A model generated the notes under the pieces. That model was not told the DNA's origin. It saw only the letters and a program-made list of their open reading frames with translations, and ran no database searches. The translations under genes were made by a program, and so were the position numbers. A stretch of 64,000 bases of DNA from an uncultured Eubacteriales bacterium (GTDB lineage Bacteria; Bacillota; Clostridia; Christensenellales; Aristaeellaceae). The DNA lies in NCBI GenBank assembly GCA_900315675.1, contig OMZY01000003.1, forward strand, positions 186,001 through 250,000. Direction: 5' to 3'. Below are positions 3,563 to 46,342 of this stretch, piece after piece (position 1 is the stretch's first letter; every line of letters begins with the position of its first letter).

Positions 3563-4948
3563 TTATCCGCGGCGTTTCTGGCGGTTGACTCTGCGGACCG
3601 GCCTTCCGGTGCCCCGGGAGGCGGGACGGGAATGAATCTGTCCGTCGCGGCCGATGGTCACCTTGCCGGTGGGACGGGAAGAGGCGGGTCGCGCGGGCCT
3701 GGCAGCGGGCTTTGCCGCAACAGCCGCTTGGCGGCGCTCCGCCAGCGCGTTGCCCTGCCGGTCCAGCCTGGCAGGCCGGGGTTCCCGGACCTTCGGCGGA
3801 GTGGGCGTGGTGACTTCCATGGGCCAGTCGCTTTCCTTCAGGGACAGGCGCTTGCCGATGAGCTTTTCCACCTGGTTCAGCTGCTTGACCTCGTCGATGC
3901 AGCAGAAGGAGATGGCCTTGCCGGTTCTGCCGGCGCGGCCGGTACGGCCGATCCGGTGAATATAGGCTTCCGGTTCCATGGGCATGTCATAGTTGAACAC
4001 ATGGCTGAGGCCGGCCACGTCTATGCCGCGGGCGGCAATGTCTGTGGCGACCAGCACCCGGCACTTGCCGCTGCGGAACAGGTTCAGGGCGGTCTGGCGG
4101 GCGTTCTGGCTCTTGTCCCCGTGAATACCGGCGGCTTCGATGCCTTTGCGCTTCAGGTCCCGGACAATCCGGTCCACCCCGTGCTTCGTGCGGGAGAAGA
4201 CCAGGGCGCTTTCCACCTCCGGGTCCTCCAGCAGCTGCGCGAGCAGGTGCTTTTTGTTGACCTTGTCCACGTAATACAGGCACTGGTCAATGGCGTCCAC
4301 GGTGGAAGTAACCGGATCCACCTTCACGTTCTCCGGATCGGTCAGCAGGTCCAGGGCCAGCTTTTCCACTTCCGGCGGCATGGTGGCGGAGAAGAGCAGC
4401 GTCTGCCGCTCCTCCGGCAGGGTGCGGACGATCTTGCGCACGTCGTGGATAAAGCCCATGTCCAGCATGCGGTCAGCTTCATCCAGCACGAAGATATCCA
4501 CCCAGTCCAGGCGAACCAGTCCCTGGCCCATCAGGTCCAGGAGCCGACCGGGACAGGCGATGACAATTTCCGCGCCCCGGTGGAGGGCTTCCACCTGGCC
4601 GCCCTGGCCGACGCCGCCGAAGATGACGGCGCTGTCCAGGCCTTCGCCCTTGCCGTAGAGCTGGAAGTTCTCCCAGGTCTGCATGGCCAGCTCCCGGGTG
4701 GGGGAGAGGATCAGGCAGCGGATTACCTTGGCGTTGTTCCGCCGCGGGGGAATCTCCTTCAGCCGCTGCAGGATGGGCAGGGCGAAAGCGGCGGTTTTGC
4801 CGGTGCCCGTCTGGGCGCAGCCCAGGACATCCTTTCCCTCCAGGACCAGCGGGATGGTGGCCTGCTGGATGGGGGTCGGGGTTTCATAACCGGTATCGCG
4901 GATGTTTTTCAGAAGGGAAGGGGATAAACCGAGATCTTTAAATTCCAT
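3563..4948 (-). CDS. DEAD-box ATP-dependent RNA helicase
   Basis: A 461-residue cytoplasmic helicase that remodels RNA, for example in mRNA decay, ribosome assembly or cold adaptation. All core motifs are present in order: Q-motif (TPIQQATIP), AQTGTGKT (Walker A), PTRELA, GG, CPGRLLD, DEAD (Walker B), SAT, FSRTKHG, ATDIAARGID and HRIGRTGR. After about residue 370 comes an Arg/Pro/Ala-rich basic tail, likely an RNA-binding extension, as in RhlE/CshA-like members. It lies 3 bp downstream of the ald stop codon on the same strand, so the two may share a transcript, with the ribosome-binding site inside the end of ald. The exact subfamily is not certain. Confidence 0.93.
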   Translation of the reverse strand: MEFKDLGLSPSLLKNIRDTGYETPTPIQQATIPLVLEGKDVLGCAQTGTGKTAAFALPILQRLKEIPPRRNNAKVIRCLILSPTRELAMQTWENFQLYGKGEGLDSAVIFGGVGQGGQVEALHRGAEIVIACPGRLLDLMGQGLVRLDWVDIFVLDEADRMLDMGFIHDVRKIVRTLPEERQTLLFSATMPPEVEKLALDLLTDPENVKVDPVTSTVDAIDQCLYYVDKVNKKHLLAQLLEDPEVESALVFSRTKHGVDRIVRDLKRKGIEAAGIHGDKSQNARQTALNLFRSGKCRVLVATDIAARGIDVAGLSHVFNYDMPMEPEAYIHRIGRTGRAGRTGKAISFCCIDEVKQLNQVEKLIGKRLSLKESDWPMEVTTPTPPKVREPRPARLDRQGNALAERRQAAVAAKPAARPARPASSRPTGKVTIGRDGQIHSRPASRGTGRPVRRVNRQKRRG

Positions 4949-4951
4949 ATA

Positions 4952-6064
4952 TCAGATGAGTTCCTGCAATTCTGTAAATTCATAGCCGTGGGCAGCCGCC
5001 ACGTTCCTGTTGGTCAGCTTCCCGGCATAGGTGTTGACGCCGGAGCGGATCACTTCGCTCTTCCGGCAGGCTTCTTCCAGGCCGGCGGCAGCGATCTCCA
5101 GGCCGTACTTCACGGTGGCGTTGGTCAGGGCGATGGTGCTGGTCCGCGGCACGGCGCCGGGCATGTTGCCGACGCAGTAGTGAACCACGCCGTCCAGCTT
5201 GTAAACCGGATCGTCATGGGTGGTGACATGGGAGGATTCGCCGCAGCCGCCCTGGTCGATGGCTACATCGACGAAGACCGCGCCGTCCTTCATTTCCTTC
5301 AGGTATTTCTGTTTGAACAGCTTCGGGGTGGAACCGCCGGGGATCAGCACGGAGCCGATGACCAGGTCCGCATCCTTCAGCACGCGCTCCACGTTGCTGT
5401 CGTTGGAAACCAGGGTCTGGATGTGGGCGCCGAACATGTTGTCCAGCTCCTCCAGCCGCTTCAGGCTGATATCCAGGATGGTGACGTTGGCGCCCATACC
5501 GACGGCGATCTTGCAGGCGTTCATACCCACGGTGCCGCCGCCGAGGATGACCACGTTGGCCTTGGGGGTGCCGGGCACGCCGGCCAGCAGGATGCCTTCA
5601 CCGCCGAACTTCTTTTCCAGGTACTTGGCGCCTTCCTGGATGGACAGGCGGCCGGCGATCTGGCTCATGGGAGCCAGCAGGGGCAGGGAGCGGTCCTTCT
5701 CCTGCAGGGTTTCATACGCCACGGCGTTGACCTTGCCCTTCAGCAGGGCATCGGTCTGCTGTTTGTCGGCAGCCAGGTGCAGATAGGTGTAAAGGATCAG
5801 GCCGTCCCGGAAGAGGGGATATTCGCATTCCAGCGGCTCCTTGACCTTGACCATCATATCCACCAGGTGCCACACATCCGCGGCGTTGTCGATCAGGGAA
5901 GCACCGGCGTCCACATATTCATTGTCGGTGAAGCCGGAACCGATGCCGGCACCCATTTCGATATACACATGATGTCCCGCGGCGATATAGGCGCGGACGT
6001 TGTCAGGGGTCAGGCCGACCCGGTATTCATTGTTCTTGATCTCTTTGACACAGCCGATCTTCAT
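4952..6064 (-). CDS. ald: Alanine dehydrogenase
   Basis: NAD-dependent oxidative deamination of L-alanine to pyruvate and ammonia, or the reverse reaction in ammonia assimilation. At 370 residues it is the normal length for the family. Visible features are the N-terminal MKIGCVKEIKNNEYRVGLTP, the substrate-binding Lys in VKVKEP, the catalytic His in YLHLAA, the NAD-binding GGGTVG, and the VDVAIDQGGCGESS segment with the conserved Asp. The start at 6064 is chosen because homology begins there and GGAAAGGAAG precedes it; the open frame runs further upstream without homology. The neighbours are a Nudix gene and a helicase, which give no pathway clue. Confidence 0.95.
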   Translation of the reverse strand: MKIGCVKEIKNNEYRVGLTPDNVRAYIAAGHHVYIEMGAGIGSGFTDNEYVDAGASLIDNAADVWHLVDMMVKVKEPLECEYPLFRDGLILYTYLHLAADKQQTDALLKGKVNAVAYETLQEKDRSLPLLAPMSQIAGRLSIQEGAKYLEKKFGGEGILLAGVPGTPKANVVILGGGTVGMNACKIAVGMGANVTILDISLKRLEELDNMFGAHIQTLVSNDSNVERVLKDADLVIGSVLIPGGSTPKLFKQKYLKEMKDGAVFVDVAIDQGGCGESSHVTTHDDPVYKLDGVVHYCVGNMPGAVPRTSTIALTNATVKYGLEIAAAGLEEACRKSEVIRSGVNTYAGKLTNRNVAAAHGYEFTELQELI

Positions 6065-6120
6065 TTTGCAGTCTTCCTTTCCATAGCGTCGAAAAGTTTT
6101 ATTGTTATGCCAATAAAATA

Positions 6121-6156
6121 ACAGAGCCGGAGAACAGGAACAAGTGACGGCTCTGT
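6121..6156. terminator. Terminator between the Nudix gene and ald
   Basis: ACAGAGCCG pairs with CGGCTCTGT around an 18-base loop, followed by T7 on the plus strand and TATTTTATT on the minus strand. On the minus strand it ends the Nudix transcript ahead of ald. Confidence 0.7.
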
Positions 6157-6179
6157 TTTTTTCCTGCACAGCTGAAGTT

Positions 6180-6746
6180 TTACAGTCCCAGGATCCGGGC
6201 AGCCTTGAGGACGCAGACCTGGGTTTTGGCGTCGGAGATCTTTCCGGACATGACGTCCTCCACCAGTTCGGAAAGGGGAATGGTGTACACGTCGAGGAAT
6301 TCATCCTCGTCCAGATCCTGCGTTCCCTTATGCAGTCCCCGGGCCATATACATGGTGATGTACTCGTCGCTGTAGGCGGGGGCAGGATGGAAATCGCCGA
6401 TCTCCGTCCACTCGTCCGCGGTGTAGCCGGTTTCCTCCCGCAGCTCCCGCCTGATGGCGGAAAGCCGGTCCTCGTCCGGTGCGTCCAGCTTGCCGGCGGG
6501 GATTTCCAGGATCACCTTATCCAGCGGATAACGGTACTGCCGCTCCATGATCACTTCGTTATTCTCGGTGATCGGGATCACGCAGACCGCGCCGATGTGG
6601 CGGATCACTTCCCGGACGGCGCTGCTGCCGTTGGAAAGGGTGACGGTGTCCCGCTTTACGTGGAGGACGATGCCGTTGAAGATGTCCTCGGAAGAAGCAG
6701 TCTTTTCAGAAAGGCGGGACCATTCGGTATCAGTGTTGAAATTCAT
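6180..6746 (-). CDS. Nudix hydrolase, ADP-ribose pyrophosphatase-like
   Basis: A 188-residue cytoplasmic hydrolase of nucleoside diphosphates linked to another moiety. The Nudix box is complete: GKLDAPDEDRLSAIRRELRE followed by ETGY, matching GX5EX7REUXEEXGU. A beta-rich N-terminal part, the box preceded by YRYPLDKVILEIPA, and the downstream PAPAYSDEYI match the ADP-ribose pyrophosphatase subgroup (NudF/YqkG). The actual substrate is an inference. The start is supported by the AGGAG upstream of the ATG at 6746. Confidence 0.88.
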   Translation of the reverse strand: MNFNTDTEWSRLSEKTASSEDIFNGIVLHVKRDTVTLSNGSSAVREVIRHIGAVCVIPITENNEVIMERQYRYPLDKVILEIPAGKLDAPDEDRLSAIRRELREETGYTADEWTEIGDFHPAPAYSDEYITMYMARGLHKGTQDLDEDEFLDVYTIPLSELVEDVMSGKISDAKTQVCVLKAARILGL

Positions 6747-7031
6747 AGGGCTCCTGTCCGGCTGCGGCCGGGGGTAGTACTGAAAACTTAAGAATTAAGA
6801 ATGAATAATGAATAATGGCGGAGGGATGGCTCCGCCATCCTTTGAATCAATGAATGCGTCCGCAACCTCAATCGATGCACTGCTCGCTTGGAGCGCTTCG
6901 CATTGCTTGTTTCGGTTGACTCATTCACCTCGTTTTCGCCTATGGCGAATGACCCACTGGGTCACCACTCGGATCGTTCCCCTTCGGACGTAGTAAGGGA
7001 CAGTGGACTTTGCCCAAATGCATAATATTGC

Positions 7032-36506: not shown

Positions 36507-37970
36507 ATGCCCTGTACTACTGTGCTGGTGGGACGGAAGGCCAGCAATGACGGATCCACCATGATCGCCCGGACGGACGACGGACACTTTGACGTAAAGA
36601 AGCTGATCAAGGTGAATCCCAAGGATCAGCCGAAGAAGTATATCAGCAAAATATCCCATGTGGAGATTGAGCTTCCGGAAAACCCGCTGGGCTACACTTC
36701 CTGCCCCAGCGTGGACCCGAAGGACGGCGTCTGGGCCGCCACGGGCATCAACGAAGCCAACGTGGGTATGACGGCCACGGAGACCATCACCTCCAATCCC
36801 CGGGTGCTGGCGGCGGACCCGCCGGTGGAATACAAAAAGGCGAAGACCCGGAAGGAAAAGGACGTGCCCGGCGGCATCGGGGAAGAGGATATTGTGGTGC
36901 TGGTGCTGCCCTATATCCGCAGCGCCCGGGAGGGCGTGGAGCGGCTGGGCAAACTGCTGGAGGAGTACGGTACCTATGAGTCCAACGGCATCGCCTTCAA
37001 CGACGAGCATGAGGTCTGGTGGATGGAAACCATCGGCGGTCATCACTGGATGGCGCGGCGGATTCCGGAGGACAGCGTGGTGATCATGCCGAACCAGTTC
37101 GGCATGGACGGGTTTGACCTGAAGGACGCCTTCGGAAAGCAGGAAGCGAACCTGTGCTCCGCGGACCTGAAGGAGTTTATCCGGGACAATCATCTGGACC
37201 TGAACCAGGACGGAAAGTTCAATCCCCGGGATATCTTCGGCAGCCGCCGGGATATGGACCATATCTATAACACGCCACGGGCCTGGTTCATGGGCAGGTA
37301 CCTGACCCCGGAAAGCCATCGGTGGGACGGACCGGACGCTGAATTCACGCCGGAAAGCGACAATATCCCCTGGTGCCTGAAGCCGGACCGGAAGGTGGCG
37401 GCGGAGGACGTGAAATATATGCTGTCCGGGCATTACCAGGGAACGCCGTACGATCCCTATATCAACCGGGATACGGGAATGCGGGGCATGTACCGGTCCA
37501 TCGGCATCAACCGCACCGGCGTAACCAGCATCTGCCAGATCCGGCCGGACGTGCCGGATGCCATCAAAGGCATTGAATGGATCATCTTCGGTTCCACCAC
37601 CTTCGGCGCCGCCCTGCCGCTGTACACAAATGTGAGCCGGATCCCGGACTACCTGAGCAAGGTAACACTGGACACCTCCACGGAAAACTATTACTGGAGC
37701 AGCCGGCTGATCGGCGCCCTGGCGGATCCGTGGTACGCTTCCACGGTCCAGAATATTGAACGGTATGAGCTGACAGTGATGACAAAGGGTCGGACGCTGA
37801 TCCGGGAATATGACAGGAAGATGATCGAATCCGGCAACTTCTCCCTGACGGAGGAAGCCAACGGGAAGATCTGCGCCATGGCGAAGGAGGAAACCACAGC
37901 CACGCTGAACAAGATCCTGCTGACGGCCAGTGAGAAAATGAAGAACGGCTATAAGATGGCGGACAATTAA
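36507..37970 (+). CDS. pepD: C69-family dipeptidase
   Basis: A 487-residue Ntn-fold peptidase that cleaves dipeptides. The start MPCTTVLVGRKASNDGSTMI followed by ARTDD is the family signature. The Cys at position 3 is the expected N-terminal nucleophile after removal of the first residues. Further family parts: WAATGINEANVGMTATETI, YGTYESNGIAFNDEHEVWWM, followed by ETIGGHHWMARR, and DGKFNPRDIFGSRRDMDHIY. The start at 36507 follows AAGGAGG. No signal peptide, so it is cytoplasmic. It probably processes peptides brought in by transporters such as the Opp system further on (inference). Confidence 0.92.
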   Translation: MPCTTVLVGRKASNDGSTMIARTDDGHFDVKKLIKVNPKDQPKKYISKISHVEIELPENPLGYTSCPSVDPKDGVWAATGINEANVGMTATETITSNPRVLAADPPVEYKKAKTRKEKDVPGGIGEEDIVVLVLPYIRSAREGVERLGKLLEEYGTYESNGIAFNDEHEVWWMETIGGHHWMARRIPEDSVVIMPNQFGMDGFDLKDAFGKQEANLCSADLKEFIRDNHLDLNQDGKFNPRDIFGSRRDMDHIYNTPRAWFMGRYLTPESHRWDGPDAEFTPESDNIPWCLKPDRKVAAEDVKYMLSGHYQGTPYDPYINRDTGMRGMYRSIGINRTGVTSICQIRPDVPDAIKGIEWIIFGSTTFGAALPLYTNVSRIPDYLSKVTLDTSTENYYWSSRLIGALADPWYASTVQNIERYELTVMTKGRTLIREYDRKMIESGNFSLTEEANGKICAMAKEETTATLNKILLTASEKMKNGYKMADN

Positions 37971-37994
37971 TGCGGCTGGACAACCGAACAAACA

Positions 37995-38278: not shown

Positions 38279-38389
38279 AAAATGTCTCATATTGATCATA
38301 GAAAACCGAAAATATATAAGACCAAAGAAATGACACTATACCACTGATCCCAATAATCCAAATACGCTTGAATGTGAAAGGAATCTGTT

Positions 38390-40285
38390 ATGGCAGTTAG
38401 AGACGCCGGATCTATTATTCGAGAACTCAGGCTAGCTACTGGTATGTCTCAGTGGGATTTCTGCGATGGCATATGTTCCGTTCAGACTCTTTCCAATATT
38501 GAAAATGGCAAACAAGCTATTTCTCCGATTGTTTTTCAAAGCCTGACAGAAAAATGCGGGGAAATGATTAATCCTTATCCTCAATTTGTCAGCCTTGATG
38601 ATTTTCAGTGTTATATGGCTGTGAGCAATGTGGATTTTTACATTGATTCCTGGCAGTTTTCTATTGCGCTGGACGAATTAAGAAAAATTGAAGAAAGTTA
38701 TTTTGCTGAAAATAAGCTGTATTATCAACAATGGTTGATGTATCATGCCTATATTTTGGAATTGTCCGGCCATGAAGATTATGCAGCCAGAAAGGAGTTG
38801 CTCCTTCATGCGCTCAGCATTACTGGCTGCGATGATATAAACAAGATTTCTCCAAAGCGGATGCTTCTTTCAGTGGAAACACGCCTTCTGATAATGCTTG
38901 GCGAAGTATGCATTTTGCAGAATGATCAGACGAACAGTTCTCGGATTCTAGCCATTGTGGAGAAACAGTTTCCCGTTTCAGAAAGAAATACGGGGGGACG
39001 TTTCCCGCATGGCGCTGTGGAGCTTTTGCGTCAGCATTATCTCTTGAATTTTGATCCACAAAAAGCATCTGTGGAAGGAGCGTATGAAGATTATCATAAC
39101 GCGGTCAACAGCTTTATTAGCGTACCGACATTACGTGCTTGTTTTGCTTATGCAGCAGCATTATATATCAATGGCCATTATGAAAAAGCTGAGGGAAAAG
39201 TTCGGCAGCTGAATGCAGGATCCAGTCTTTCCGGACCGGCTTATATCAATACCTGCTGCCAATTTCTGGACAAATGTGACGGTATCCCTGATGGCTTTAA
39301 AAAGCTGTTCATTAGAAGAAAAACAAAGAAGAATTATATGTTTCCCCAAAGACATGATCCCTCTTCCATGTCTAAAGGTGTTTATTCTTTCGAGGATGGA
39401 TTTGGCTTTGGTCTGGGAAATGTGATCAAGCATTTGCGTGAAAAACAGGGCCTGTCTCTTGATGAAACATGTGATGGCTTATGCAACCGTTCCGTCCTTT
39501 ATAAAATCGAAAAAGGCGATGTTGTGCCGCGATTGACATTGGCGGAGGCGATCATTCAAAGACTTGGAATCGTGACACGCATATTTGATTTTTACGGTTC
39601 ATCTGAAGAAAAAGAATACTACTCCTATAAGAGGAATCTTCTTTTTCTGACTACAAAGCGGAAAAAGGATGTTGCTGATACCCTAAACAATATCGAATCA
39701 CTGCATATGGCAAAAGATCCTTTGGTGCAGCAGTATGTGATGTTATGGAAAGCTGCTGCTCTGCTGCCAGAATGTGAAATGGAAAAAGAACTAAAAAAGG
39801 CCATCCAGCTCACGCAAAAGAATTATGCGCAGAACCGGTTGACCAAGAGAATGTCGTGGACAGAAATTAACATCGTGCAGCATATTTGTCATTGCCATTA
39901 CAGAAACAATCCGAACAAGGGAATCGCAGAGACAAGAGAACTTCTTTCAATGCTGACAAATTACAACTTTCCGGAAGAACAGTGCCGCTTTTATATTCCG
40001 GTACTGATGAACAATTTATCGTACTACTATTATACAAACAACACTTTTTCGGAACTGGATAAAATGAAAGAGCAATATGAAACCCCGCTAATGAGGTATT
40101 ATAGTGATTACAAAGTGCTGTATATGTTTACACACATCAGATCAATCATAAAACGCGGTTGGATGCTGCATAACCTGAAGGATGAAATTGACTTTGTGCG
40201 TCAGAATCTTCTCCTTATTGAGGAAAATGATTTAGCGGAAGAATTGACGAGTCTTTTAGCAGAATATCAGATTGATTTCATGTAA
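38390..40285 (+). CDS. Tandem HTH/TPR transcriptional regulator, RRNPP-type peptide receptor
   Basis: A 631-residue cytoplasmic regulator. It has two XRE-type HTH domains: residues 8-60 (IIRELRLATGMSQWDFCDGI then CSVQTLSNIENG) and 343-398 (VIKHLREKQGLSLDETCDGL then CNRSVLYKIEKG). Each is followed by a helical, TPR-like region (about 75-300 and 405-631). The two halves are recognisably related (shared CDG(I/L)C and ENG/EKG positions), so this is an internal duplication of an Rgg/PlcR-like receptor. It lies head-on to a 59-residue secreted-peptide gene, whose 3' end overlaps its own by 19 bp, and upstream of a RiPP operon. It is therefore the likely quorum-type regulator of that operon. Markedly AT-rich relative to the flanks. 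Confidence 0.85.
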   Translation: MAVRDAGSIIRELRLATGMSQWDFCDGICSVQTLSNIENGKQAISPIVFQSLTEKCGEMINPYPQFVSLDDFQCYMAVSNVDFYIDSWQFSIALDELRKIEESYFAENKLYYQQWLMYHAYILELSGHEDYAARKELLLHALSITGCDDINKISPKRMLLSVETRLLIMLGEVCILQNDQTNSSRILAIVEKQFPVSERNTGGRFPHGAVELLRQHYLLNFDPQKASVEGAYEDYHNAVNSFISVPTLRACFAYAAALYINGHYEKAEGKVRQLNAGSSLSGPAYINTCCQFLDKCDGIPDGFKKLFIRRKTKKNYMFPQRHDPSSMSKGVYSFEDGFGFGLGNVIKHLREKQGLSLDETCDGLCNRSVLYKIEKGDVVPRLTLAEAIIQRLGIVTRIFDFYGSSEEKEYYSYKRNLLFLTTKRKKDVADTLNNIESLHMAKDPLVQQYVMLWKAAALLPECEMEKELKKAIQLTQKNYAQNRLTKRMSWTEINIVQHICHCHYRNNPNKGIAETRELLSMLTNYNFPEEQCRFYIPVLMNNLSYYYYTNNTFSELDKMKEQYETPLMRYYSDYKVLYMFTHIRSIIKRGWMLHNLKDEIDFVRQNLLLIEENDLAEELTSLLAEYQIDFM

Positions 40286-40446
40286 TAAAAGCCAGCGTCG
40301 CCTCTCAATTCTTTACCTTGAGTGTAATCAGTTTCACCTTCTGCAACCAGTATTGAGTTGTCTAAAGGAGAAGAGTTTGACAAACTGCATACATAAGCAG
40401 AAAGAACCAGACCTAAAACAACTATCATAGCAATAATCTTTTTCAT
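40267..40446 (-). CDS. Small secreted peptide, candidate pheromone of the adjacent receptor
   Basis: 59 residues: signal-like N-terminus MKKIIAMIVVLGLVLSAYVC followed by a short tail whose end reads RGDAGFYYMKSI. A good ribosome-binding site (AAGGAGATGCTGGTT before the ATG) supports the start at 40446. Secreted pro-peptides convergent or adjacent to RRNPP receptors (Phr, PapR, NprX, SHP) usually release a C-terminal 5-9-mer that is re-imported by Opp. By analogy, the mature signal would come from the hydrophobic end (GFYYMKSI region). The Cys at 20 could alternatively act as a lipobox-like site (SAYVC does not fit well). Confidence 0.65.
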   Translation of the reverse strand: MKKIIAMIVVLGLVLSAYVCSLSNSSPLDNSILVAEGETDYTQGKELRGDAGFYYMKSI

Positions 40447-40574
40447 AACCAGCATCTCCTTAAAAACAATATAGTTTATGGGTAGTATTCTATTTTTTTT
40501 GTTTTTCGATGAGAATAATACTTTAAGAAACAAAATAGATGTCTATTACTCTCAAAGTGTTTCATGATAGTTGA

Positions 40575-40602
40575 TTGTTCAGCAACGTTATTTCGTTATG
40601 AT
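40575..40602 (+). promoter_or_regulatory. Probable promoter of the RiPP operon
   Basis: -35 TTGTTC at 40575-40580, 16-bp spacer, -10 TATGAT at 40597-40602. The spacer contains the inverted repeat AACG-TTATTT-CGTT, a candidate regulator site. Spacing and boxes are reasonable but not strong, as expected for an activated promoter. Confidence 0.45.
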
Positions 40603-40712
40603 TTAATTATAGTTTCGGCAGTCACGTGAAATAGATATTCAAGATGATTTGCTGAAATTAATACAAGAATGCACTGATATTCAAGTGCCATCTTAGAAAG
40701 GAGGACGTAAAT

Positions 40713-40832
40713 ATGTTGGAAAACATGAACAAGCAGGAAGAAGTTGAAGTCATCGAATATGACGAACTCGAGACCGAAGCGAGCTTCGAACTGCATTGCC
40801 TGTGCGGACTTTCCTCCGGATCAGGATCTTAA
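40713..40832 (+). CDS. RiPP precursor peptide
   Basis: 39 residues, preceded by a strong AAAGGAGG ribosome-binding site 8 nt before the ATG. The leader is highly acidic (MLENMNKQEEVEVIEYDELE), and the C-terminal part reads SFELHCLCGLSSGSGS. It thus presents a CLCG pair followed by a Ser/Gly-rich tail, residues typical of YcaO-modified (azoline or thioamide) and radical SAM-modified cores. It is the first gene of an operon with a SPASM radical SAM enzyme, a YcaO protein, an S41 peptidase and an ABC exporter, separated from them by a stem-loop. The leader/core boundary is not known; the segment after ELH is a guess. Confidence 0.8.
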   Translation: MLENMNKQEEVEVIEYDELETEASFELHCLCGLSSGSGS

Positions 40833-40841
40833 TCATTTGCA

Positions 40842-40881
40842 AAGGGACATTGCCCGTTGTGTGAGTTGGGCAATGTCCCTT
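40842..40881 (+). terminator. Stem-loop between the precursor and radical SAM genes (attenuator)
   Basis: A 14-bp perfect stem, AAGGGACATTGCCC/GGGCAATGTCCCTT, with a 12-base loop and no T-run. It fits a read-through/stability element giving excess precursor mRNA over enzyme mRNA. Confidence 0.7.
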
Positions 40882-40911
40882 GCATGAATTCAAAACAATG
40901 AGGCAAGTAAG

Positions 40912-42216
40912 ATGATTTATTACAGTGATCCACTATATACAATTATCCCAGATAAAGGTAAATATATCCTTTATTGTGGAAACTTGCGGAAAGCAATACG
41001 GCTTTCATATTCCAAAATGTATTTATATAAAACGATTGTTGAGAACCAGAACAAAATGTCATTGGACACAATGTTCGAATGTTATCAGATAGATCCAAAA
41101 GATTATGAAGACTTTACGGAACAGATGGTCCAGAAAAAAATCTTCTTTATCAGGAAAGAGGATTTCCAGAAAGAAGATTTTTGCCATCGGTATAATAAGC
41201 TCAGCTGCGATCAGGAATTAAGAGTTGCATATCTTCATGTGACGCAAAGATGCAATTTGAATTGTTATTATTGTTATAACAAAAAAAATATAAATTCAAG
41301 ACGTGAAGAGCTTAGCACGGAAGAATGGAAGAGTGCTATCGATAAACTGTACGGAAAAGGCGTGAGAACATTTGTTTTCACCGGAGGAGAACCCACATTG
41401 AGAACAGACCTGGAAGAAATACTGATGTCTGTTCCTGCAGATTGCAAGGTTAATGTTTTAACAAACGGAACATTGTTGAAAAATGAAGTTAAACGCATAT
41501 TTCGATATGCGAACGAAATAATAGTCAGCCTGGATTCCGCCATTGCTGAAAACAATGATCGAAATCGAGAGAATTCGGCTCATTACAATGTGTTTTCAAA
41601 TATCGATGGTTTGGATAAAGAACAAAAAAGAAAGCTGACCGTTCGTACGGTAATAACAAAATATAATGTAAATGATATCGAATCTCTGAGAGAACGGATG
41701 CGGGAGATGGGGGTACGATATGTTACGAGTGGATATCTTCCGAATTCTTCTAAGGAATGGGATGAGTTTATTCCGCCTCAGAATGAGTTTTCGAACGGAT
41801 CATCCAAACAAAAAATAGTCGAATGCGGAGCTGGAAAATCAGAGATTGCGATTGATTCCAACGGAGATATTTATCCCTGTCAAAGCTTAATAAAGCCGGG
41901 TTTCATTCTTGGAAATATCAAAAATGAAAACTGGTGGAGGCAGATGAGGGAAAAGGCAGAAACAGTCATACCGCAAAGGGATATTAACAGCATTGAAAAA
42001 TGCAGGGATTGCGTATACAAGTATTTTTGCGGAAATGGCTGCAAAGCTATTACTTTTAACCTATATCAACAGTTGGAACGATGCAACGATTTCTTCTGTG
42101 AGTTTTATAAACAAAAAGCGATTGCCGACATAAAAAACCTTTTTCAGAAGGAGAATTGTGATGTATCAGGGAGCGAAGGATCGGGAACCGATCGACACGA
42201 TACGGATCAGCACTGA
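40912..42216 (+). CDS. Radical SAM/SPASM peptide-modifying enzyme with N-terminal RRE-like domain
   Basis: A 434-residue peptide maturase. Residues 1-85 (PLYTIIPDKGKYILYCGNLR onward) have the size and pattern of a PqqD-like RiPP recognition element that would bind the precursor leader. The radical SAM core carries the [4Fe-4S] motif C114-x3-C118-x2-C121 (RCNLNCYYCY) and the GGEPTL SAM-binding segment. A SPASM domain (about 304-400) supplies Cys for auxiliary clusters: ECGAGKSEIAIDSNGDIYPC and CRDCVYKYFCGNGC. Such enzymes make sactionine, ranthionine, C-C or C-O crosslinks or epimers on RiPPs. The last 18 codons overlap the YcaO gene by 56 bp, which indicates coupled translation. Confidence 0.9.
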   Translation: MIYYSDPLYTIIPDKGKYILYCGNLRKAIRLSYSKMYLYKTIVENQNKMSLDTMFECYQIDPKDYEDFTEQMVQKKIFFIRKEDFQKEDFCHRYNKLSCDQELRVAYLHVTQRCNLNCYYCYNKKNINSRREELSTEEWKSAIDKLYGKGVRTFVFTGGEPTLRTDLEEILMSVPADCKVNVLTNGTLLKNEVKRIFRYANEIIVSLDSAIAENNDRNRENSAHYNVFSNIDGLDKEQKRKLTVRTVITKYNVNDIESLRERMREMGVRYVTSGYLPNSSKEWDEFIPPQNEFSNGSSKQKIVECGAGKSEIAIDSNGDIYPCQSLIKPGFILGNIKNENWWRQMREKAETVIPQRDINSIEKCRDCVYKYFCGNGCKAITFNLYQQLERCNDFFCEFYKQKAIADIKNLFQKENCDVSGSEGSGTDRHDTDQH

Positions 42217-43813
42217 ATATCTGCAAAGCAAAAAAATCTTCTTTATTGAAGAGTGGCATGAAAACAACAGTGGATTGTATTCTGTATCAGTTAAAATTCC
42301 AGGAACCGGGTTCTCGGTAAATGGAAAAGGGATTAACCGGGAATTAGCACTGGCAAGTGCACACGGGGAAATGCAGGAACGTTTATTGAACAAGGCTTTT
42401 TTCCGCATTAATAATGATACATTGTATTGGATGTCAAACTCATGCGAAAAATCGGAGATTCATGTTGAGCTGTTGCTTAAAAAAATCGGAGTATCCGAAT
42501 CAAAGATTGAAAATCTTACAAAACAAATCACCAAGAGCCTTGGAAAGACCAGAGCACTGAAGGATGATGTGTTTATTTCCTTTAGTGGAGATCAGATAAT
42601 AGTTCCGACTAAGGTTTCTGATTTCTTATATGGGACAAACGGAATGTGTGCCGGCAATTCCTATGAAGAAGCATTTACACAAGGCCTTTCCGAGATATTG
42701 GAGAGATATGTTGCAAGGAAGCTCTTTAGCGGAAAAGTATTAACGCCAGATTATAATTATAAAGAACTGGCAAAAGCCGAATACTTTGATATGCTGATCA
42801 ATAAACTTGAAAATATGGGCATATCTGTCTGCGTTAAGGATTTTTCTTTGGGTAAAGAAATCCCGGTACTTGGCGTTATATTTATCAATCAAAACAACCA
42901 GACATATTTTATGAAGATGGGTGCGCATCCGAATCTTAATATCGCATTGGAACGGTGTTTCACGGAATTTGCACAGGGAAGGTCAAATCAACAGATGAGC
43001 CATATGGTTCACATAGAAGACGTTTTTACGAGTGAGCACGATCAGCTACTGCGATATTTTACGGATGGAAACACTTCATTTCCAATTGAGTTGCTGAAGA
43101 ATCATGGTAAGAGTACGCTGAAATCAACAGATGCATCTGATAATAAAGGGTATTTTCAGCAATTAAAGAACCTGATCGAAGCATTGAATTATACGATTTA
43201 TTATCAAGATAATTCTTCAGAAGCCTTTCAGGCCTTCCGGATCATCATTCCGGGAATGAGCGAGATTGCATCACCGGAGGATATTCCCAAGGCACGGGGG
43301 ATGTTTGATGTAAACAAGCATATCAAATCCTTGTTTGAATCAAAATCTGTTTCTGTCAAAGAGCTGAACGCTTTAGCAGCCAGCCTTGAAAAGAGTAATG
43401 GATTAAACAAGGAACTCGGGTTGCATTATCCGGTTATTTCGGTCAAGTTAAATGGCAGACAGCTTCCAAAATTCAAAATGTTTGAATTCTTGAACTTGAT
43501 GTATCTTAGAAAAGGAGAAATTGAAGAATCCTACCACTTTATGATCAATCATATTAAACTCTGCAAACGCGATCCAGTATATCTATGCTTGATGATGATG
43601 GAGAAATTAATCCTGGATAAAAAAGTTTTGTCGCAAGATGTTGATTCGTTCGGGGGATATATTGGGGGAGTTTTTAAAAAGAATGTTCGCGATGCAGCTA
43701 TTAATCTTCTTTTCCATTCGGCGGATTTATTTGAAGTAAAATGGAATGTTGAAAATAATTACTTTTATCAGAATAGAAGGAGTTTATATATAAAGCTGTA
43801 TGGATATCAGTAA
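42161..43813 (+). CDS. YcaO-family peptide backbone-modifying enzyme
   Basis: A 550-residue protein. It starts at the ATG at 42161, 7 nt after AGAAGGAG; a GTG one codon earlier is too close to it. Three ATP/Mg-binding YcaO motifs are visible: ALASAHGEMQERLLN (about 63-77), GLSEILERYVA (about 174-184) and ALERCFTEFAQGR (about 260-272). YcaO proteins activate backbone amides with ATP to form azolines, thioamides, amidines or macroamidines. The usual partners (ThiF-like/C protein, TfuA) are absent in this cluster. The C-terminal half (about 400-550) is helical, tetratricopeptide-like (ALAASLEKSNGLNKELGL ... NLMYLRKGEIEESYHFMINH). It may replace a partner function; the reaction is undetermined. 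Confidence 0.85.
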   Translation: MYQGAKDREPIDTIRISTEYLQSKKIFFIEEWHENNSGLYSVSVKIPGTGFSVNGKGINRELALASAHGEMQERLLNKAFFRINNDTLYWMSNSCEKSEIHVELLLKKIGVSESKIENLTKQITKSLGKTRALKDDVFISFSGDQIIVPTKVSDFLYGTNGMCAGNSYEEAFTQGLSEILERYVARKLFSGKVLTPDYNYKELAKAEYFDMLINKLENMGISVCVKDFSLGKEIPVLGVIFINQNNQTYFMKMGAHPNLNIALERCFTEFAQGRSNQQMSHMVHIEDVFTSEHDQLLRYFTDGNTSFPIELLKNHGKSTLKSTDASDNKGYFQQLKNLIEALNYTIYYQDNSSEAFQAFRIIIPGMSEIASPEDIPKARGMFDVNKHIKSLFESKSVSVKELNALAASLEKSNGLNKELGLHYPVISVKLNGRQLPKFKMFEFLNLMYLRKGEIEESYHFMINHIKLCKRDPVYLCLMMMEKLILDKKVLSQDVDSFGGYIGGVFKKNVRDAAINLLFHSADLFEVKWNVENNYFYQNRRSLYIKLYGYQ

Positions 43814-44729
43814 TCTGGAACAGGTGATAAACCTTCTTGCAGACATGGAGAGCAATAACCCGGATGTTGAAAAACGACTGGCAGAGAGCATTGTAAATAC
43901 CATGTCAATTCCATATTTTCGTATGGAAAGTGATGAACGGATCATTGCTGATATTCTGGGCTTCGAAACCAGAAAGCTTGCAGATGATATCTACAGAGTA
44001 GAGAAAGTATTTGATCCTGGAATGGAAGAAATAGTACCCGGGGATCTTTTGATCGCTCCGCAAAAAATCCAGAAACGCCTGGACATAAAGGATATCCCTG
44101 CACAGGTTAAGCTTTGGGTCTTGAGAATAAGCAGCAGTGATGTTAAGTTATTTGAAAAGAAAGTCGAGGTGAATCTTCTGGCGGAGGAACGAAACGACAT
44201 ATGTAAAAAAGGCATGCAATATCTTAAAGTAGCGGATTTCACCTCGATTGATGAATCGAAAACAAAAATCAATCAAACGCTCATTCTGGACCTGCGGTTG
44301 AATCGAGGTGGTAGAATCGCTGAAATGATGACAGCATATGAGATGATCTTTGGCTCGAAGATGAGGATGTTTCAAAATAAAAAGGACAATTCCTTGAATT
44401 TCCGTGCAGATAGATCAGAACCTTTCAAAACGGTATATTTGATCGTGGACAGAATTACCTGCAGCAGTGCAGAAATATTCGCAGGCATAGCGCAAGAATA
44501 TGTAGATGCGATTCTTGTTGGAACGAAGATGTATGGAAAAGATATGATTTGCAAAAGAAAACAATTCGGAAGCTTTATCCTTCATGTTCCGGAAACAAAG
44601 TTTTATATCGGAAATAGAAGTGTAAAAGAGATCGAACCTGATTATCTGGTTGATAATATTTGTGAATATAATGCTGAAGAGATCTTAGACCTTTGTTACA
44701 GGTTGGATCACAGGGAGGAACAGAAATGA
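43800..44729 (+). CDS. S41-family (C-terminal processing type) peptidase
   Basis: A 309-residue Ser/Lys protease. The N-terminal 150 residues form a helical cap typical of S41 domain starts, with no obvious PDZ domain. LILDLRLNRGGRIAEMM is the conserved LDLRxNxGG segment, VDRITCSSAEIFAGIAQ holds the nucleophile Ser222, and GTKMYGKDMICKR holds the general base Lys247. The 25-residue Ser-Lys distance equals that of tail-specific proteases. No signal peptide, so it works in the cytoplasm, perhaps removing the leader or clearing unmodified precursor. It overlaps the YcaO gene by 14 bp and the ABC gene by 4 bp. The nearest purine-rich site (AGAAGGAG) is 17 nt upstream, unusually far. Confidence 0.85.
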   Translation: MDISNLEQVINLLADMESNNPDVEKRLAESIVNTMSIPYFRMESDERIIADILGFETRKLADDIYRVEKVFDPGMEEIVPGDLLIAPQKIQKRLDIKDIPAQVKLWVLRISSSDVKLFEKKVEVNLLAEERNDICKKGMQYLKVADFTSIDESKTKINQTLILDLRLNRGGRIAEMMTAYEMIFGSKMRMFQNKKDNSLNFRADRSEPFKTVYLIVDRITCSSAEIFAGIAQEYVDAILVGTKMYGKDMICKRKQFGSFILHVPETKFYIGNRSVKEIEPDYLVDNICEYNAEEILDLCYRLDHREEQK

Positions 44730-46282
44730 AAGAGTATAAGAAGTTCTTTGTGTTTATGCTGAGCATTGTGGTGGTATCAAGTCTCCTGAGCCTGATGCCG
44801 CCGATCTGCCTGCAGATCTGGGGGTCATCCGGAGATTCACTGGATGTTAAGCGGATTATCTGGATTATTGCTATTTTACTGATCACGAATGTCGTAAACA
44901 CGATTCTGGTACTCTATCGGGAAAACTACGCGAATAAGTTCAACAAAGAAAATGCCAGATCCTATCTGCGGAATTTCATGAACATGAAATACGACAGGAT
45001 CATCCAGGAAGGACCTTCCAACCTTCTCGAACGGATTATTACGGCGGTTACCGGCATATATGCATATATGACAGGCGGGTATATACAGATCTGGTCGTCG
45101 GTAATCATTGCGGCAGCGGCGATTGCACTCTTAAGTCAGGTCAGTCTGATTATTGCAGCAGCAATGCTTTTGTTCATTCCATTCATCTATTTCGGTTTCA
45201 AACTGATTAATAAGGAGCTTACCAAGCGGTCCATTGAGCTGCAGAAACAAACAGGCCTCGGCTTTCAGGAAATCATGAGTTATATTCAGGAACCGGATTA
45301 CTTCAAGCAGCTGCCGAGTACGGAGCCTGTGATCAAAAAGATGAATCCGGCTTTGGATAAAATCTATGACGCGATGGCAAGGATCAACAAGTTCGCGCAA
45401 ACATCATCGATTGCGCTGTCCAGCCTGGGAACCATTCTGCAGAATGTGATTATGCTGCTTATTGTATATTCTTTCCTGGAGGCTAAAACATCACCTTATC
45501 TTCTGATGATCGCAACCATCATTGTCCCGCTCTATTTTGAAGCGGTACAATCGATCACGCGGGCCAATATTAACAAGAAGGACTATGTCGCGGCGCTGAA
45601 TCTGGAAAAAATGCTGAAGGAAAACGGGGAAGAAACAGGCGGAACCGGGATGGATGCAGTATCGACCCTGACGATTGATGTCAACAAGATCGATCTGACG
45701 GATAAAATTCTTGATTTTGAAGCGCATGCTGAACTGCACAAGGGTGATATCGGACGGATTTACGGAAAGTCCGGTTGCGGGAAAAGTACCTTTGCGAAAG
45801 CCTTGCTGAAATTCCGCCAGATTGACGGGGTGAAGATTAACGGGATCAGCCTGTCGGATATTGATAATAAGGAATTGAGGAAAAACGTTGAATATGTTTC
45901 ACAAAACATTCCGATCATCAAGGGTTCTGTCAGAGATAACCTGTTGTTTGGAAAAGAGTATCTGGGCATTGAAGACGCGCAGCTGCAGAAGATATCACTG
46001 CTGTCTTCTGTGTTAAGCAACAAAACGCTGGATGATGAAATTCTGGAGGGCGGAGCCAATCTTTCGGGCGGTGAAAAGCAAAAGATCGCGATTGTTCGGG
46101 CACTTTTGTCCGACCCGGAGATTTTGATTCTGGATGAGGTGTGCAGCAACATAGACCGTCAGACTTCAGACGAGATCTATGATATGCTTAAGTCAGAGAA
46201 GGAACGACGGATTACGATTATCATCTCGCACGACGATCTTCCGGAAGATTTTGTTAATGTTGATATAACAAAAACCAATTGA
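44726..46282 (+). CDS. ABC exporter with fused membrane and ATPase domains
   Basis: A 518-residue half-transporter, probably working as a homodimer and exporting the mature peptide. The membrane domain (1 to about 300) has six hydrophobic segments, and the ATPase domain follows with GKSGCGKST (Walker A), YVSQNIPIIKGSVRDNL (Q-loop), NLSGGEKQKIAIVRALL (signature), ILILDEVCSNIDRQ (Walker B) and ISHDD (H-loop). It has no N-terminal C39 peptidase domain, so leader removal must be done by another enzyme. The start ATG at 44726 overlaps the peptidase stop by 4 bp. Base composition is closer to the host than the first island genes. Confidence 0.88.
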   Translation: MKEYKKFFVFMLSIVVVSSLLSLMPPICLQIWGSSGDSLDVKRIIWIIAILLITNVVNTILVLYRENYANKFNKENARSYLRNFMNMKYDRIIQEGPSNLLERIITAVTGIYAYMTGGYIQIWSSVIIAAAAIALLSQVSLIIAAAMLLFIPFIYFGFKLINKELTKRSIELQKQTGLGFQEIMSYIQEPDYFKQLPSTEPVIKKMNPALDKIYDAMARINKFAQTSSIALSSLGTILQNVIMLLIVYSFLEAKTSPYLLMIATIIVPLYFEAVQSITRANINKKDYVAALNLEKMLKENGEETGGTGMDAVSTLTIDVNKIDLTDKILDFEAHAELHKGDIGRIYGKSGCGKSTFAKALLKFRQIDGVKINGISLSDIDNKELRKNVEYVSQNIPIIKGSVRDNLLFGKEYLGIEDAQLQKISLLSSVLSNKTLDDEILEGGANLSGGEKQKIAIVRALLSDPEILILDEVCSNIDRQTSDEIYDMLKSEKERRITIIISHDDLPEDFVNVDITKTN

Positions 46283-46294
46283 CAATTAATGGAT

Positions 46295-46326
46295 AAAGGG
46301 CGGTCTCACATGTGAGGCCGCCCTTT
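46295..46326. terminator. Terminator at the end of the RiPP operon (bidirectional)
   Basis: AAAGGGCGGTCTCACA pairs with TGTGAGGCCGCCCTTT, apart from one mismatch, followed by GTTT. It also serves the convergent pmbA gene. Confidence 0.85.
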
Positions 46327-46342
46327 GTTTAAGCCTGGGTAA

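Follow-up and report, generated by a model that had tools for sequence, protein, structure and literature searches.

An AT-rich island with a peptide-modification operon

Within a 64,000-nucleotide stretch of contig OMZY01000003.1 from an uncultured, anaerobic Eubacteriales bacterium of the family Aristaeellaceae (hereafter, the window), we analyzed an AT-rich block of seven genes with a GC content of 0.397 at 38380-46290, compared with 0.564 across the rest of the window (Table 1). The block carries a regulator and a convergent small gene, followed by a short precursor peptide, a radical S-adenosylmethionine (rSAM)/SPASM enzyme, a YcaO protein, an S41 peptidase, and an ATP-binding cassette (ABC) exporter. 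On balance, we lean toward reading it as a mobile operon for a ribosomally synthesized and post-translationally modified peptide (RiPP), in which a sactipeptide-type rSAM enzyme and the YcaO protein would act on one core, accompanied by the peptidase and the exporter. A preliminary description of the sequence had proposed a single RiPP operon, and this is supported by the recurrence of the same five-gene order in another order of the class. The gene positions are as that description placed them, the AT shift against the flanks was borne out, and the overlaps of 56, 14, and 4 bp were exact when recomputed. Good ribosome-binding sites (RBSs) were found for the precursor, YcaO, ABC, and convergent small genes.

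Table 1 Features of the island and its boundaries, in window coordinates
Feature	Position	Strand	Evidence or remark
11-bp direct repeat, left copy	37962-37972	+	GACAATTAATG; bounds island
Double-length PlcR/RRNPP-like regulator, 631 aa	38390-40285	+	Two helix-turn-helix (HTH)-containing halves; HTH_3 twice
Small secreted peptide, 59 aa, candidate signal	40267-40446	-	RBS and hydrophobic N-terminus
Divergent intergenic region, peptide gene to precursor operon	40447-40712		Short direct and inverted repeats; putative operator
Precursor peptide, 39 aa	40713-40832	+	Core ends HCLCGLSSGSGS; AGGAGG RBS
Stem-loop immediately 3' of precursor gene	40838-40884	+	z -4.67 and -5.0 vs. dinucleotide shuffles
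rSAM/SPASM maturase with N-terminal part like a RiPP recognition element (RRE)	40912-42216	+	Radical_SAM 2.9e-20, SPASM 1e-6 (Pfam)
YcaO, Escherichia coli YcaO-like	42161-43813	+	Pfam YcaO 6.7e-41; alternative GTG start one codon earlier
S41-family peptidase, likely leader peptidase	43800-44729	+	Peptidase_S41 3.9e-18; no obvious signal sequence
ABC exporter, membrane domain and ATPase	44726-46282	+	ABC_tran 1.1e-23
11-bp direct repeat, right copy	46281-46291	+	GACAATTAATG; bounds island

The suggestion that the island had been acquired was strengthened by a near-identical copy in a second species, G022. This was the only genome besides that of the window, among 45 from the same genus, to carry the YcaO at full identity. 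Because the two genomes differ across the 7990 bases at 38351-46340 by a single synonymous change in the precursor gene, while their right flanks are only about 80% identical overall (66-92% per 250-base bin), we read this as a compact island that was recently transferred. The left flank is mostly 91-100% identical to G022 up to 34000, with a single bin at 72%, and 85-90% identical farther left. Therefore, the exchanged block may extend some way into the left flank. G001 has an empty site, where the aligned ends of both flanking genes lie 72 bases apart. The direct repeat that bounds the island occurs in the window as these two plus-strand copies alone, with none on the minus strand; both copies are also present in G022 and are absent at the loci of the four relatives checked. 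A word as long was common to both flanks in 2 of 300 shuffles of the flanks. No recombinase was found among the seven island proteins scanned with Pfam.

A CxCG precursor family with one rSAM clade

A YcaO search of 391 genomes of the class led to G214, a member of another order, in which locus L047 has the same gene order as the window, with an rSAM BLAST match at 36% identity, a YcaO at 29%, an S41 protein of 253 aa, and an ABC protein at 33%. When a profile of the two rSAM proteins was run against 249 genomes of G214's order, 10 had matches at 1e-45. Eight loci of that order, together with the window and L092 (a contig of a Lachnospiraceae metagenome-assembled genome), form a 10-member rSAM clade with a support of 95/95 in a 14-row tree. 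L092 is the nearest rSAM relative of the window, at 40% identity and a sister pairing of 100/99, and has no YcaO. The remaining two matches, L090 and L091, were not members of the clade, and no CxCG frame was seen there. Among 381 genomes of the class, the rSAM profile gave two matches at 1e-50, both already known. Two of 378 phylum genomes matched at 1e-45, and the second of these, L204, holds an rSAM outside the clade; in its listed stretch, neither the YcaO nor the S41 of the window had a match at 1e-3. Only L092 belonged to the rSAM family among the best 80 of the genome-contig loci listed (8e-87; next, 3e-23), and no window YcaO match at 1e-8 was seen in the stretches fetched for these 80, many of which end at contig ends. 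Single-protein scans of viral contigs with the rSAM and YcaO confirmed no relative, and alignment scans of viral contigs returned eight remote rSAM loci and nine remote YcaO loci.

A stop-to-stop frame containing CxCG lies upstream of the rSAM gene in all 10 clade clusters; when each upstream region was shuffled by mononucleotides, no more than 11 of the 500 versions showed the motif. Six clusters have the longer form CxCxCG (L047, L083, L084, L086, L089, and L092), and close variants occur in three (L085, L087, and L088). The window precursor has lost the first cysteine (HCLCG) and contains only two. Glycine-rich tails follow the motif, such as CACDCGIFRGGGSG, CACECGIASGSGAGSG, and CSCGCGGAGAGEGA. 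Three of the seven precursors of relatives scanned touched the NCBIfam StsA model (best, 6.7e-6 in L084, under the cut-off), and four gave no match.

Stem-loops stand at the same place behind the precursor gene in the relatives. Nine of the 10 clusters entered the hairpin test (L089, with a gap of 15 nt, was left out), and whole-gap z values ran from -3.9 to -6.8 in eight of them; the L047 gap scored -1.53 overall (14 of 200 shuffles as low) and -4.91 over 95 nt. Rfam gave no match, and a terminator scan did not list the window stem-loop, whose loop exceeds the length that the scan allows.

In the rSAM enzymes, both the CxxxCxxC motif (C114, C118, and C121) and the SPASM-type cysteines (C305, C323, C364, C367, C373, C377, and C396) are invariant in a six-row alignment. 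Among the NCBIfam models, StsB matched the window enzyme best, at 120.9 bits and under the 625 cut-off. Its closest structural counterparts in profile, Foldseek, and VIA-align comparisons were 5wgg and 5why, which we take to be the sactipeptide maturase CteB. CteB joins Cys to Thr through an S-Cgamma link (PMC11002830), and its precursor differs from that of the island. The RRE-like N-terminus of the window enzyme was only partly upheld: its predicted model aligns from the first residue with 5why_B (residues 1-403) and TigE (residues 1-410), which supports the assignment indirectly, but pLDDT across the first 100 residues is 34-62 and an hhalign comparison, discussed below, was negative.

We compared this family with the StsA/StsB models (NF045558, NF045559, and NF045574), with which it shares a short Cys- and Gly-rich precursor and a SPASM rSAM maturase. 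By contrast, all window and relative scores fall under the curated cut-offs, and the island carries an S41 peptidase and a YcaO. For an actinomycete sactipeptide, StsC is described as a stand-alone RRE protein (PMC12710340), its correspondence with the StsA model being assumed from the name, whereas on the island the RRE-like part is fused to the rSAM. No YcaO was named inside an StsA-like cluster in the literature titles and abstract openings surveyed. What is new here is a putative StsA-like sactipeptide-type family in Clostridia, judged from its sequences, of which a minority of the sampled clusters carry a YcaO module.

The YcaO gene as a module

An exporter was detected by BLAST or Pfam in all 10 clade clusters, and an S41 gene in five (window, L047, L083, L086, and L092). 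The latter was not found by tblastn at 0.01 in L084, L085, L087, L088, or L089, where a divergent copy could be missed. At 0.005, L084 does have one 54-residue S41 match, which lies well away from the cluster. The Ser and Lys regions of the peptidase are common to the window and L047. YcaO was found in the window and L047 and was unseen in the other eight clusters, although the L086 contig ends 73 bases past its S41 gene and a YcaO could lie beyond. The expectation that the YcaO and rSAM genes would co-occur, therefore, held in part: a second syntenic precursor-rSAM-YcaO-S41-ABC locus exists, but YcaO is not a constant partner of this rSAM, which has its own conserved surroundings of precursor, exporter, and, often, S41 peptidase; this counts in part against the preliminary description.

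Holding the window and L047 rSAM proteins together was rejected (p-AU 0.0009), and the same constraint on their YcaO proteins was not (p-AU 0.232). These trees call for some caution: in the rSAM tree, L090 and L144 are long branches that come together, and the YcaO proteins of the window and L047 are long rows. Because the YcaO-bearing rSAM enzymes are not sisters and the window's sister has no YcaO, we conclude that YcaO is, as the trees suggest, a module that a sactipeptide-type pathway either acquired twice or lost on several occasions. It is possible, although we think it unlikely, that both YcaO-bearing clusters descend from one YcaO-bearing ancestor and the other eight lost the gene. The shared position of YcaO and the YcaO tree would fit such an ancestor, but the rSAM tree speaks against it, and a history of two gains is more economical than a single gain with several losses. 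The 3' end of the window rSAM gene, encoding ~18 C-terminal residues, overlaps the YcaO gene, and the protein extends at least 10 residues past five aligned relatives, which is what an insertion of YcaO downstream of the rSAM gene would be expected to leave.

At the family level, 11 of 300 genomes contained a YcaO match at 1e-10, and an rSAM open reading frame (ORF) adjoins it in all nine besides G000 and G022 (loci L016, L017, and L048-L055). Because of this, we consider YcaO-rSAM pairing to be ordinary in these bacteria; what is uncommon is a YcaO combined with an rSAM of the CxCG sactipeptide type. A tblastn search of plasmids with the YcaO returned 25 records, none of which reached 60% identity and 8 of which were from Escherichia.

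Other YcaO clusters were seen along the way. Locus L017 (2-6350) of G001, a genome from the genus of the window, has another kind of cluster, with a single-length HTH regulator, a YcaO of 634 aa with a C-terminal four-Cys motif, an rSAM, a PqqD-like protein (Pfam 8.8e-12), and an ABC transporter. E. coli-type YcaO genes adjoin one or several rSAM genes in L016, L043, and L048-L055, with ABC transporters in several; L049-L052 and L054 have two YcaO genes each, and L043 has small nif11-like ORFs as judged by eye.

Possible YcaO chemistry and alternatives

YcaO proteins bind ATP through the motifs SxxxExxER, QxxxExxER, and RxxTExxQ. All three are complete in the window YcaO, as SAHGEMQER, QGLSEILER, and R266, T269, E270, and Q273; for the third motif, the motif script reported another match, in the N-terminal part. 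The only solved relatives at 0.01 were E. coli YcaO, the nearest (4q84, 2.4e-32), and MJ1094. No TfuA match was found in the genome (95.66% complete), and a Pfam scan of the seven island proteins showed neither a SagB dehydrogenase nor an E1/Ocin-ThiF partner. In E. coli, which also has no TfuA, YcaO is the enzyme that thioamidates uL16 (PMC13063428). However, that enzyme acts on a folded ribosomal protein, shares ~29% identity with the window YcaO, and differs from it in that the latter lies within a RiPP operon. Many clostridial YcaO proteins of the window type carry a C-terminal CxxC...C, often as CxxCxxCx5C, possibly a metal site. This four-Cys motif, common among the clostridial homologues, is absent from the window YcaO.

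Our best guess for the YcaO product, based on these sequence resemblances, is a thioamide, with an amidine or an azoline as alternatives. In the pathway that we propose, the precursor would belong to a remotely StsA-like CxCG family whose members frequently read CxCxCG and carry a glycine-rich tail. The rSAM/SPASM enzyme would bind the leader via its RRE-like N-terminus and, judging from the kinship of enzyme and precursor, join Cys sulfurs to downstream Ser or Gly in the core. YcaO would use ATP to activate a backbone amide in the same core, most likely yielding a thioamide without TfuA, by analogy with uL16. The S41 peptidase may then remove the leader, and the ABC protein, which had no C39 peptidase domain among its Pfam matches, may export the product; both roles are suggested by the domains. 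The stem-loop behind the precursor gene would probably lift the precursor above enzyme levels. The product chemistry is what we infer from these comparisons, and the choice of amide and nucleophile is suggested weakly.

Several observations weigh against this pathway. On NF040716, the equivalog model for E. coli YcaO, the window protein scores 189.9 bits (its residues 143-528 against model positions 160-547 of 571), far under the 700-bit cut-off, and its predicted structure is of low quality (pLDDT 38). Comparison of the rSAM N-terminal part with one PqqD-like protein by hhalign gave a probability of 0.5%, and the window precursor reached 13.4 bits of the 75 required by the StsA-related NF045559 (E 0.078). 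YcaO was seen in only two of the 10 clusters. Finally, CLCGL is found in both YcaO-bearing precursors and in none of the eight others, but this argument has an n of 2, one of them doubtful because the L047 precursor-like frame (5760-5930, minus strand) reads ...ACQCLCGLQA, TGA, and then SGSGGGGGS and has no in-frame start codon. For the same reasons, the L047 precursor gene may be broken or misassembled.

The amidine alternative, in which the YcaO of this operon would introduce an amidine or alter the C-terminal backbone in some other way, seems improbable to us. Its model is the Itf system of Bacteroides thetaiotaomicron, where the rSAM ItfD and the YcaO ItfB both modify one precursor with an exporter in the cluster (PMC11002830, PMC10352776). 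The preliminary description knew of no well-characterized RiPP class with the island's composition; Itf offers a parallel in its rSAM, YcaO, and exporter. It was the one rSAM-YcaO pair encountered whose chemistry on a single peptide has been demonstrated. This chemistry, and the missing TfuA and SagB/ThiF-like domains, would suit an amidine. Against it, the window YcaO is nearest E. coli YcaO among the models and solved structures searched and has no C-terminal Cys cluster, whereas ItfB reportedly carries a fused Fe-S recognition domain; Itf also differs in its C39 exporter, its C-terminal Ile-Thr-Phe, and its C-C crosslink plus amidine (PMC11002830).

We likewise give little weight to azoline formation from core Cys and Ser, with the RRE-like part of the rSAM supplying the missing partner. 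The core holds both residues, the ATP motifs are intact, and the RRE-like part may be available, but no E1/Ocin-ThiF-like or SagB domain is present among the island proteins, the SagD azoline-type model scored only 48.8 bits, and use of Cys would compete with crosslinking. Also improbable, in our judgment, is the reading of YcaO as a passenger with no relation to the peptide, whose target would be a host protein such as uL16: the eight clusters without a visible YcaO and the ribosomal target in E. coli (PMC13063428) would agree with this, but the 56- and 14-bp overlaps, the same YcaO position in L047, and the adjoining rSAM in all nine other family genomes argue against it.

Proposed regulation by a PlcR-like receptor

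The preliminary description placed an RRNPP-type receptor next to a secreted-peptide gene, and the presence of a PlcR-like regulator beside such a gene was supported. The regulator's two HTH_3 matches reached 1.2e-14, and an alignment of one half with the other (24.6% over 114 aa, 5e-9) points to a fused duplicate. Its sole sequence match to a solved structure at a 0.1 cut-off was PlcR (E 0.0012). Within the clade, BLAST or Pfam detected the regulator in two of 10 clusters, the window and L092 (28% over the whole protein, 1e-52), and the L092 homologue has a weak RNPP_C match (0.062). Both proteins (L092, 4585-6420) are double-length with two HTH domains and resemble covalent dimers. The streptosactin regulator Rgg, by contrast, is single-length.

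The 59-aa peptide gene lies tail to tail with the regulator gene and is divergent from the RiPP operon. With AAGGAG 9 nt ahead of its ATG and a hydrophobic N-terminus, it looks real; its product gave one sub-threshold Pfam match and no NCBIfam match. No comparable secreted peptide was seen by eye near the L092 regulator among ORFs of at least 20 aa (4300-6990). A promoter scan was at chance level (23 vs. 22.2). The regulator probably answers the convergent peptide and would turn on the divergent operon, placing it under putative quorum control. Rgg-controlled rSAM peptides are already known, streptosactin among others (PMC13361665, PMC8172795). Streptosactin (GggA/GggB, Streptococcus thermophilus) resembles the island, as we read it, in combining an rSAM sactipeptide, a protease, and RRNPP-type regulation; a review gives its rings as Cys25-Ser28 and Cys31-Gly34, and no YcaO is mentioned for it (PMC8172795, PMC13361665).

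Implications

The most specific scenario that we can offer is a tentative one, and we hold it to be possible rather than probable. A CxCG sactipeptide-type pathway would have taken in an E. coli YcaO-type enzyme, perhaps on two occasions, and this enzyme would thioamidate a backbone amide within or next to a C-L-C-G-L core motif. The product would carry thioether crosslinks and a thioamide, production would be controlled by a covalently duplicated PlcR-like receptor, and the whole would have spread between Clostridia as a compact island. If true, this would link E. coli YcaO-type chemistry, so far described on uL16 (PMC13063428), to peptide natural products, and the island product may combine two chemistries. 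The analysis outlines a scattered clostridial CxCG precursor family with one rSAM clade. It also provides natural pairs with and without YcaO (the window and L092, L047 and L083), in which the YcaO contribution should be readable by mass spectrometry. More broadly, the family offers an example of a modifying enzyme that may serve as a removable module of a RiPP pathway.

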